Source of the DNA: Phycisphaerales bacterium
GTDB taxonomy: Bacteria; Planctomycetota; Phycisphaerae; UBA1845
DNA length: 64,000 nucleotides
Reading direction: 5' to 3'
NCBI GenBank assembly: GCA_020353195.1
Contig: CP070691.1
Location: 1,705,894 to 1,769,893, forward strand
The notes beneath the pieces were generated by a model, which worked only from the letters and a program-made list of their open reading frames with translations, did no database searches and was not told the origin of the DNA. The position numbers and the translations under genes are program-made. Positions 54,049 to 60,186 of this stretch are shown here, one piece after another (positions within the stretch are counted from its first letter, which is position 1; every line of letters begins with the position of its first letter).

Positions 54049-54963
54049 CTACGGATAGATCAGGGCATCCGTCGTGCAGTATTGCCCGGTCGCGAACGCA
54101 TCCATACCAGGGAACCACGTCGTGATGAAGTCGATCGTCCCTCGTATGCGGACCCAGTTCTTCTCGACACCGGTGTTCGGCACGAACGCCGTGTAAATGT
54201 TGTCGTTGTCGATGCCCGCAATGGGCTTCCGCTCGAACGTGGCATGAGCGTCGGCAAACAGGCAGTTCTGGCCCTCGCCCTGCCCGCGGCCACCGTGGTT
54301 GGGCGAGTTGAAACCGGTCCACTCGCTGGGCGAGGAGTTGATCAGGATGGTGGTCGCGATTTCGTTCAGCTTGTTGGCATCAACCGCGCCGCTGCTGATC
54401 GGCCCCTTGTCGGCGGCGACGATCATTCGACTGTCCAGACTCTCGCTCGGGCGGGTGTCGGTCGGCCCGTAGGGAACCTGGTAACCGTAGCTGATGTGCC
54501 CCAGCCGGTAGAAATCGTAGTACATGTCAATCGGCGACGTCGGGTCCGTGGTGTCGCCGGAACTCGGGCAGATGAACTGTTTCGGCGTCACCTCGCCCGT
54601 CCGGACCAGGATCCAGAAGCACCGCGTCGTCGACAAGGTCGTCGCCGTGGCGTTGGATATGACCGCGCGGCCGGGAGCCGGATTCGCCGCCGTACCTTCA
54701 TCCGCGGAGTCGGTGGGCAGATCCACCCAGTACTTCGGCACGTCCTTGGCGACATTGAACTCCGCCAGAGGCCAGGACTCCTCGTTCTCGTTCGCATAGA
54801 TCTTGCACGAGGTTCCCAGACCCTTGATGTTCGCTGCACATACCAACCGCTTGCTGAGCTCGCGCGCCCGCGACAAGCTGGGCAGGAGGATGGAGATCAG
54901 CAGCGCGATGATCGCCACCACCACCAGCAGCTCAATCAGTGTGAACGCCTTCCTACCTTTCAC
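54049..54963 (-). CDS. planctomycete-type pseudopilin with H-x-G-x-G / FADxH C-terminal motif
   Basis: A 304-residue type II secretion-like pseudopilin. The N-terminus [20 protein letters not shown] is a prepilin cleavage/methylation motif with Glu at +5. [20 protein letters not shown] follows, as in the large planctomycete family with N-terminal methylation sites. Near the C-terminus [19 protein letters not shown] is the H-x9-DG-type block. It is probably cut by a prepilin peptidase and displayed at the envelope. GTG 54963 has AGGAGG eight bases upstream. It is monocistronic, with its own terminator. Confidence 0.92.
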
Positions 54964-58365: not shown

Positions 58366-59337
58366 TCAAGGAACCAGGAACGCGTCGGTGGCGGCCAATT
58401 GCACCTCGGTTCCCTCGTAGGTGGTGACGTCTCCGGCGGTCCAGATGTTGTCGCCGCCGGATCCGAGGACGGGCGAAGTGGTCCATTCGCGATGGCCATC
58501 AGCGAAGAGAACGTTCTGCCCCGTGCCGCGATGGGCCACCGTGTTGGCTTCACGGAGGTTGCCCACGCCATGGACACGCCCGCCCTCGAACAGCGGGTTG
58601 GCATCGCTGACCACCGGGACGCACAAGCGGTCCTGCAGATTGCACGTCGGGCCTGCCATGTTCTGCATGTCGTAGCTGAAGTATCGGCGGTCTGCGACAG
58701 AGGCCGCCGAGAACGCTTGTTCAGGAGGCATAACCTGGTGATCCGGCCGGGACGGACAGATCATGGCATCCGGTCTGACCAGGTGAACGCGAATCAGGAT
58801 GTGCAGGTTGCGCCGATTCGGCGAGTTCCGCAGCCAATTCACGCCCGCCCGCATGCCCGCATTGGGCAGACAGCCGTCGTTGGCCTGGGCATAGGACTGC
58901 AGCCCCGAGAAGATCGACGCCAGATTCGAGGTACATTGCGCCCGTTTGGCCAAGTAGCGCGATCGCGACAGGCTGGGCACGAACACGCCGACGAAGAACA
59001 TGATGCAGGCGGCCAGCGCCACCAACTCCGGCAGCGAGATGATGGGGCGGCGTCCTACGCCGCGGCCCTCGCCCGGCGGCAGCGCCGAGCCCGCCACCAT
59101 ACGGGGGAAGCGTCGCTGCTCAATCCGATCAAGGACGTTGTCCACCAGGTTCGCGGGCGGCGGTGGGGCCGCCCAGGTCTGCAGCGGCTCGAGAATCGCC
59201 CGGATCTTGTTCAGCTCGTCGGTCAGCCCGGGGTCCTCCCGGAGCCTCCTCTCGAGGTCACGTCGGGCCTCCTCGTCGAGTCGGCCGATCGCGTAATCGA
59301 ACAGAAGATCATAAATCGCAGGAAGTTGTGGCGCCAT
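58366..59337 (-). CDS. anti-sigma-like membrane protein fused to a pilin-like domain
   Basis: A 323-residue protein. Residues 1-95 are cytosolic and helical with the layout of an anti-sigma N-terminus (YDLLFDYAIGRLDEEARRDL, LREDPGLTDELNKIRAILE), lacking zinc-binding HxxxCxxC. Residues 99-140, ISLPELVALAACIMFFVG and VFVPSLSRSRYLAKRAQCTS, align position by position with the pseudopilin at 54049-54963 ([39 protein letters not shown]). The outer part has NDGCLPNAG, then ICPS, and AHRGTGQNVLFADGH, the H-x9-DG motif. The Gly -1 site for peptidase cleavage is missing. It lies 88 bases downstream of the ECF sigma gene and is presumably its regulator. Confidence 0.85.
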   Translation of the reverse strand: MAPQLPAIYDLLFDYAIGRLDEEARRDLERRLREDPGLTDELNKIRAILEPLQTWAAPPPPANLVDNVLDRIEQRRFPRMVAGSALPPGEGRGVGRRPIISLPELVALAACIMFFVGVFVPSLSRSRYLAKRAQCTSNLASIFSGLQSYAQANDGCLPNAGMRAGVNWLRNSPNRRNLHILIRVHLVRPDAMICPSRPDHQVMPPEQAFSAASVADRRYFSYDMQNMAGPTCNLQDRLCVPVVSDANPLFEGGRVHGVGNLREANTVAHRGTGQNVLFADGHREWTTSPVLGSGGDNIWTAGDVTTYEGTEVQLAATDAFLVP

Positions 59338-59425
59338 GCCAACGAATCCAGACAGGTCCTGCCCACCTCGTTTGCCAGGTCCGCCCGCACGGGCGGCCCA
59401 TCGGTCCCATCAACAGTACGTCCCG

Positions 59426-60031
59426 TCAGTCCGACAGGTTCTGACCCTTTTTCTGCTCGTGCCGCAAGGCCCTCCCGAACGCCCCTACCGCGGCGTGAAG
59501 GCGGCTTTTCACGGTCCCGAGGGGGATATCCAGGATCTCGGCCATCTCCTTGTAGGTGAACTGGTGGAAGTAGGCCAGGACCAGCGCCTCGCACAAGGCC
59601 GGGGGCAGCCGGTCGATTCCCCGCCGCACTGCGCGCCGCTTCTCCTCAACGTCCATCTGCTGGCCTGGCGCATGCGCCTGGTCGGCCAGAAGGTCGAGGA
59701 ATGTCTGCCCCGCGTCGTCGTCGCCGGCGATTTTCGCGTCGAGCGCGACTTCCCGCTGGCGGGAGCGGGCACGGAGCCAGTCGCGCGCCTTGTTGGCGCC
59801 GATGGTGAAGAGCCAGGGCTTGAAGCGGCGCGACAGATCAAAGCGGTCCGCCGACACGTGGACCTGCAGGAACGATTCCTGCACCACGTCGTCGGCCGCC
59901 GCTGAACTCCGGGTGAATCGAAACACGAAGTCGTACAGCTCGCGGCTGTGGCGCGTGACGATCAGGCGAAAGGCCTCGGGGTCGCCCCTGATGTGATCAG
60001 CCAACAGTTGCTCGTCGGTTCGCCTGCTCAC
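59426..60031 (-). CDS. ECF-type RNA polymerase sigma factor
   Basis: A 201-residue sigma-70 family protein of the extracytoplasmic-function class. Region 2 has AFRLIVTRHSRELYDFVFRFT and DDVVQESFLQVHVSADRFD, and PWLFTIGANKARDWLR. Region 4 has RGIDRLPPALCEALVLAYFH and TYKEMAEILDIPLGTVKSRLH, the helix-turn-helix binding the -35 element. I prefer GTG 60031 over ATG 60061 because VSRRTDEQLLADHIRGD is the usual start. The pilin-fused anti-sigma-like gene follows, so the pair is probably one operon responding to an envelope signal. Confidence 0.93.
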   Translation of the reverse strand: MSRRTDEQLLADHIRGDPEAFRLIVTRHSRELYDFVFRFTRSSAAADDVVQESFLQVHVSADRFDLSRRFKPWLFTIGANKARDWLRARSRQREVALDAKIAGDDDAGQTFLDLLADQAHAPGQQMDVEEKRRAVRRGIDRLPPALCEALVLAYFHQFTYKEMAEILDIPLGTVKSRLHAAVGAFGRALRHEQKKGQNLSD

Positions 60032-60186
60032 GGCGGGTATTGTACACCCGCGCGCAGGCACAGCCAGAGTTCGCCGTCGTGCGATCCCGGCACCGGAACG
60101 GATCGTCTCTCATGGGCAGCACCGGGCCCTGACCCGCCTGGTGTGAATAGACCAAGAGGATGAGCTGATGCCCCATCCGAGGGGTG

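Follow-up and report, generated by a model that had tools for sequence, protein, structure and literature searches.

The window analysed here is a 64,000-nt stretch of a 3.79 Mb planctomycete genome. At positions 59426–60031 on its minus strand lies a gene for an ECF sigma factor. The product carries Sigma-70 regions 2 and 4 only, matched by Pfam Sigma70_r2 (E=1.5e-16) and Sigma70_r4_2 (E=4e-13), and scores above the cut-off of TIGR02937. The reading frame is open from 60061 (60061–59426), and the most likely start codon is the GTG at 60031, since the N-terminus V-x-x-P-T-D-E-Q-L-L is conserved in relatives. A second gene starts 88 nt downstream on the same strand and encodes a protein of 323 residues, P0001 (58366–59337, minus strand), at the coordinates given by an earlier reading of the DNA made from its letters alone (the sequence-only reading). 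An APH-family gene lies upstream of the two genes and a convergent UDPGP-family gene lies downstream; therefore, the operon in this genome looks like the sigma gene and P0001 only.

We also inspected the surroundings of the pair in relatives. In 30 of 54 large loci of the order, a gene for an enhancer-binding protein with GAF, sigma-54 interaction AAA+ and Fis-type HTH domains is divergent from the ECF sigma gene. Examples are L071:1134-2891 (minus strand) and L137:2442-3953 (minus strand), with 28 more loci of the order, a same-genus genome among them. There is no clear orthologue of this protein in the window's genome, and the APH gene occupies the slot. Immediately upstream of the pair, most Phycisphaerae-type records (L298–L308) carry another ECF sigma gene, which is more distant and lies on the opposite strand.

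Anti-sigma and pilin halves of P0001

The N-terminus of P0001 is, on profile and model evidence, a class I-type anti-sigma domain (residues 7–75; 59113–59319, minus strand), from which we infer that it binds and inhibits the sigma factor. Class I (ASDI) domains are defined by a three-helix bundle, a linker and a helix 4 (PMC7406223). The AlphaFold model of P0001 (pLDDT 85) has this four-helix layout, with helices at residues 7–16, 22–34 and 36–54, a linker, and a helix at 64–75, followed by a disordered stretch (78–95) and a long helix (102–152). Mean pLDDT is above 90 for residues 11–50 and about 60–87 around helix 4. Pfam alone gave no significant match to P0001, and the zinc-binding (ZAS) motif H-x3-C-x2-C is absent from it. 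Residues 11–132 match the NCBIfam model “anti-sigma factor” with E=1.2e-15, at a score of 58 bits that lies below the model's cut-off of 100 bits, and the same model matches 33 of 34 members of the P0001 family. A profile of 34 orthologues searched against the PDB found RskA (4nqw) at residues 7–71 with E=0.0012 and RsiW with E=0.31; this one profile matches solved anti-sigma factors in its N-terminal part and type IV pilins at 103–164. In a Foldseek search, ranks 1–8 were all class I anti-sigma factors (RsiW, RslA, ChrR) at probabilities of 0.75–0.94, and rank 9 was a pilin. Owing to the short length of the domains, the E-values (0.4–3) are weak when taken by themselves. The sequence-only reading had proposed an anti-sigma-like N-terminus of about 95 residues and had named a missing structural match of residues 1–95 to anti-sigma domains as grounds for refutation. 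The proposal survived this test, as the NCBIfam profile, the PDB sequence search, AlphaFold and Foldseek all match these residues to anti-sigma domains, and distant relatives carry zinc-finger versions of the domain.

Two variations of this half were seen in other members. In proteins from other classes (L124, L126 and L205), zinc-finger anti-sigma domains are fused to shorter pilin-like parts; H-x3-C-x2-C is present in L124 and L126, zf-HC2 is above cut-off in L126 and L205, and L124 also matches T2SSG weakly. In Phycisphaeraceae and relatives (L107–L114, L297–L308), two tandem matches to the family profile often fill the anti-sigma region ahead of the pilin part, which looks like a duplication of the anti-sigma domain.

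The C-terminus of P0001 is a complete H-X9-DG pilin-type domain, as judged from alignments and models. The full pilin alpha-1 helix spans residues 102–152 (58882–59034, minus strand) in the AlphaFold model, in agreement with the match of the family profile to PilA (8tj2) at residues 103–164. Its transmembrane part, assigned from hydropathy and column conservation, is residues 105–124 (58966–59025, minus strand), with the hydropathy maximum at 105–123. The +5 Glu of pilins corresponds to residue 104 and the pilin Pro22 to residue 121. The outer domain, residues 153–323 (58369–58881, minus strand), is marked by Cys194, N265-S266, H269-x3-GQNVLxxDG and D318, and the conserved columns of the family include E/D104, P121, C135, Y149, C194, N265-S266, H269, G273-Q274 and D318.

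The best non-self match of P0001 in the whole genome (E=6.8e-8) is the nearest true H-X9-DG pseudopilin, at 54049–54963 on the minus strand, which makes this protein its closest own-genome paralogue. Residues 99–140, where P0001 reads HRGTGQNVLFADGH, align with the pseudopilin N-terminus one-for-one, as the sequence-only reading had stated: the alignment is ungapped with 16 of 42 identities counted by eye, including E(+5), PSLSR, R, C and N. The C-terminal tail of the pseudopilin, TDALIYP, resembles TDAFLVP of P0001. Profile-profile comparison (hhalign) between the 34 orthologues and 19 true pilins from the window's genome gave a probability of 99.5 and E=3e-23 over 201 columns, spanning the helix through the H...GQNVLFADG motif. 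Since the match reaches the H...DG motif, the likeness is more than a shared hydrophobic helix. Furthermore, when the pilin-type domain was modelled alone, AlphaFold returned a pLDDT of 91 and a pTM of 0.87, and its sole convincing match in a fold search was a type IVb pilin at a probability of 0.87, with the next match below 0.1. P0001 itself does not reach the curated cut-off of DUF1559 (PF07596; 12.2 vs 23.3 bits), and family member L125 passes it with 24.5 bits. The earlier claims of a retained outer H...DG motif and of a pilin domain in residues 96–323 thus held, through the conserved columns, the hhalign match and the separate model. Its description of the domain as a “degenerate” pilin was misleading, as the ectodomain is under strong conservation.

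One pilin feature has been lost. The site of a prepilin-peptidase substrate, with Gly or Ala at -1 and an aromatic +1, is absent from P0001, where Ile rather than Gly or Ala precedes +1 (Ile-Ile at -1/+1); the missing cleavage Gly had been noticed from the sequence beforehand. Few of 119 distinct anti-sigma proteins have Gly or Ala at -1, vs 21/21 of the pilins in the window's genome, and most family members have Arg, Val, Leu, Phe, Ile or Trp there. Position +4, Ile in pilins, is usually Arg in Phycisphaerae members and Arg or Lys in most. Of the 33 members from other classes, 24 have an aromatic residue at +1. Pro22 is kept in all 119 proteins and E/D at +5 in 112 of them. By these residues, a P0001-type protein is a pilin that has lost the capacity for processing, and its assembly into a filament without cleavage is unlikely. 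The loss would be understandable if cleavage were to cut off the anti-sigma domain.

Distribution, ancestry and promoter of the pair

About 95 of the 100 order-level relatives have a full-length orthologue of P0001, in most cases as a single copy, and so do nearly all Phycisphaerae genomes sampled. With L125 as the query, a second class gave many full-length matches across many families, and further classes are represented by L124 and by L126/L205. The loci were chosen through the anti-sigma protein and without regard to the sigma gene. All loci inspected, which cover 119 distinct proteins, have an ECF sigma homologue immediately 5' of the anti-sigma gene and in the same orientation: this was seen in 65/65, in all of L095–L114 and L124–L127, in 32/32, and in 12/12 Phycisphaerae/Phycisphaeraceae records. 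The median gap between the two genes is 20 nt. Pilin-only homologues from outside the class had an ECF gene nearby in 0 of 9 cases. The pairing that the sequence-only reading had drawn from this one locus, and the co-occurrence it had asked for elsewhere, were therefore present throughout, and the sigma/anti-sigma-pilin pair is kept in Phycisphaerae and two or more other classes.

In a tree of 102 pilin domains, made by a quick search without bootstraps, all anti-sigma pilin domains form one clade (SH-aLRT 95) that is split by class. Three rows labelled PX inside this clade are the anti-sigma proteins of L177–L179, which were sampled twice. The simplest reading of the tree is a single old recruitment of the pilin domain followed by vertical descent. 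We also considered the pseudopilin at 54049–54963 as a fixed genetic partner of the pair and rejected it. Its orthologues (L249–L260, about 50–67% identity) occur in most genomes of the family, and in most relatives they lie on other contigs or far off.

A promoter of the form GAAC-N15-17-CGTA, the usual shape of ECF promoters, recurs upstream of the sigma genes. It was present in 51 of 67 upstream regions from order-level relatives (shuffled mean 0.42), in 6 of 20 upstream regions from distant orders (shuffled mean 0.04), in 22 of 28 from the second class (shuffled mean 0.20) and in 3 of 3 from other classes (shuffled mean 0.01). These counts overstate the number of separate observations because close relatives are not independent, and the recurrence of the promoter across classes is the stronger point. 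In the window, the region that aligns with this phylum-wide promoter (60035–60072, minus strand) keeps GAAC; its CGTA box is degenerate, with no exact CGTA at that spacing. Since a promoter of the usual ECF shape precedes the sigma genes, autoregulation is likely, and the relatives are consistent with sigma genes that are transcribed by their own products.

We then searched eight relatives for a wider regulon using GAACC-N14-16-CGTAWG. The approximately 100 sites found were not above the reversed control. Most of the 20 promoter-like sites that we inspected fall within coding frames; just one stands before a gene that could be clearly recognised, and that gene is again of the ECF type. We therefore claim no regulon, as there was no excess of sites and they fall mostly inside coding frames. 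Pilin genes were considered as targets and rejected: among those of the window's own genome, 1 of 21 has a sigma promoter site upstream, and the full GAAC-N15-17-CGTA was seen at 0 of 12 orthologue loci of the closest pilin. Pilin genes of two relatives had sites in 3 of 34 cases vs 0.34 expected, a count too small to draw on.

A candidate envelope switch and its alternatives

The pair is very probably a two-gene, self-amplifying envelope switch with P0001 as its sensor. The four-helix anti-sigma domain would hold the ECF sigma factor inactive at the inner membrane. P0001 would cross the membrane once via the pilin alpha-1 helix, with the pilin-type domain exposed outside, and because the prepilin-peptidase site is lost, it would be neither cut nor assembled like a pilin and would remain membrane-bound to act as a sensor. 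When the outer domain or the alpha-1 helix registers a change, the sigma factor would be set free and would then transcribe its own operon from the promoter that is conserved in relatives and degenerate in the window. Against this reading weigh the weak Foldseek E-values, the window's inexact CGTA box, the presence of the motif in only 6 of 20 relatives from distant orders, and the outcome of the searches for a regulon and for pilin genes as targets. Release would probably occur by a conformational change or by regulated proteolysis; the proteolytic route is speculative, and the genome encodes an RseP-like M50 protease.

As for the signal, the pool or assembly state of pilins or pseudopilins is a plausible, if speculative, candidate by analogy with PilS-PilA. 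We favor it because PilC/GspF-type proteins and a large set of pilins are encoded in the genome, and because of the precedent in P. aeruginosa, where PilS senses the levels of the pilin PilA within the membrane, as reported in the account given in PMC6058289 (citing Kilmury and Burrows 2016). A non-cleavable “decoy” pilin with an anti-sigma domain might report on the pool of H-X9-DG pilins, or on their assembly platform, from inside the membrane and free the sigma factor upon a change. Such a phylum-wide checkpoint on the pilus or pseudopilus is an idea that we hold tentatively, at a little short of even confidence. Against direct feedback on the pilins stand their upstream regions, which lack the promoter in the own genome and at the 12 orthologue loci, and the genome-wide search of eight relatives, which found no excess of promoter sites. 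The sequence-only reading had suggested that P0001 perhaps senses pilin or secretion-system assembly and releases the sigma factor by proteolysis; the analysis lends this neither support nor refutation, as the M50 protease and PilC/GspF genes are present but pilin genes do not carry the sigma promoter.

An alternative is a pilin-type domain that has become a mere extracytoplasmic module for sensing a ligand or stress, with no remaining connection to pilins or secretion and with an unrelated envelope signal. In its favor, relatives showed no genetic link between the pair and genes for pili or secretion, the domain's closest pilin lies apart from it in other genomes, the sigma promoter is missing from pilin genes, and Ile at +4 has become Arg in most Phycisphaerae members. 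However, the retention of E/D5, Pro22, C135, C194 and H...GQN..DG exceeds what one would expect a scaffold to need for some arbitrary ligand site, and we consider this explanation possible but rather doubtful.

It is very unlikely that P0001 has remained a (minor) pilin whose leader is very long and whose cleavage and assembly would remove the anti-sigma domain and so free the sigma factor. All structural features of a pilin are indeed present, and the aromatic +1 of most other-class members would suit such a protein, but the Arg, Val, Leu, Phe, Ile or Trp that most members have at -1, where every own-genome pilin has Gly or Ala, and the Arg or Lys at +4 in most Phycisphaerae members speak against it. 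Practically no credence is left for chance neighbours, that is, an ordinary pilin gene beside an unrelated ECF gene with residues 1–95 as a spurious N-terminal extension. The silence of Pfam on P0001 could be read this way, but the reading is refuted by a pairing that recurs at all loci in at least three classes and by a conserved N-terminus that fits anti-sigma profiles and folds.

Relation to known systems

Like the class I anti-sigma factors RseA, RsiW and RskA, P0001 is predicted to have an N-terminal three-helix bundle, a linker, helix 4 and one transmembrane helix, and like them it is encoded directly 3' of an ECF sigma gene and has a conserved, group-specific outer domain (PMC7406223). 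Unlike in those proteins, both the transmembrane helix and the outer domain are of the type IV pilin kind, and our literature search turned up no class I group described as having a domain derived from a pilin. With the planctomycete H-X9-DG/DUF1559 (SBP_bac_10) proteins, P0001 shares the alpha-1 helix with its +5 acid and Pro22, C-x2-N, the distal Cys-Pro and H-x-G-x-G-Q-N-x-L-F-x-D-G. It differs from them in having an anti-sigma domain of about 95 residues in place of the short prepilin leader, in the lost -1 Gly/Ala, in the change of +4 Ile to Arg in most Phycisphaerae members, and in being a single copy beside a sigma gene, whereas they have many paralogues.

Two further systems offer partial parallels. 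PilS-PilR/PilA is a precedent for transcriptional control via intramembrane sensing of pilin; PilS, as outlined in PMC6058289, is a pilin-binding histidine kinase with six TM segments, unlike P0001, which is itself a relative of pilins, is coupled to an ECF sigma factor, and for which a pilin signal is speculative. In RsiV, the lysozyme-receptor anti-sigma factor, the outer domain is likewise a dedicated receptor for one partner, although, going by the description of RsiV in PMC6958937, domain and ligand are unrelated to those of P0001. A search for anti-sigma factors with pilins in Planctomycetes found no earlier report in the literature covered; the pair may already be listed among the ECF groups of Casas-Pastor 2021, in an unnamed group or under a group number. 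The parts are thus known, and their combination was not found in the literature searched.

The H-X9-DG/DUF1559 family is the largest paralogue family of the model planctomycete Planctopirus limnophila, with 68 copies, two of them essential (PMC10632474). A single-copy pair whose sensor descends from this family gives a concrete handle on its role, as the regulon of the sigma factor and the partners of the sensor are measurable in cultured planctomycetes. The pair also suggests how a pilin can turn into a signalling protein: the leader is swapped and the processing site is lost, and the topology of a pilin, with a cytoplasmic N-terminus and an outward C-terminus, already fits that of an anti-sigma factor. 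Its conservation across at least three classes points to a dedicated, so far undescribed envelope sensor. Another ECF sigma/anti-sigma-like pair was observed at G000:C1 112.4–114.8 kb (L093:2369-4775, minus strand); its outer part is large and does not resemble a pilin, and the pair adjoins an aspartyl-tRNA-synthetase-like gene on the other strand.
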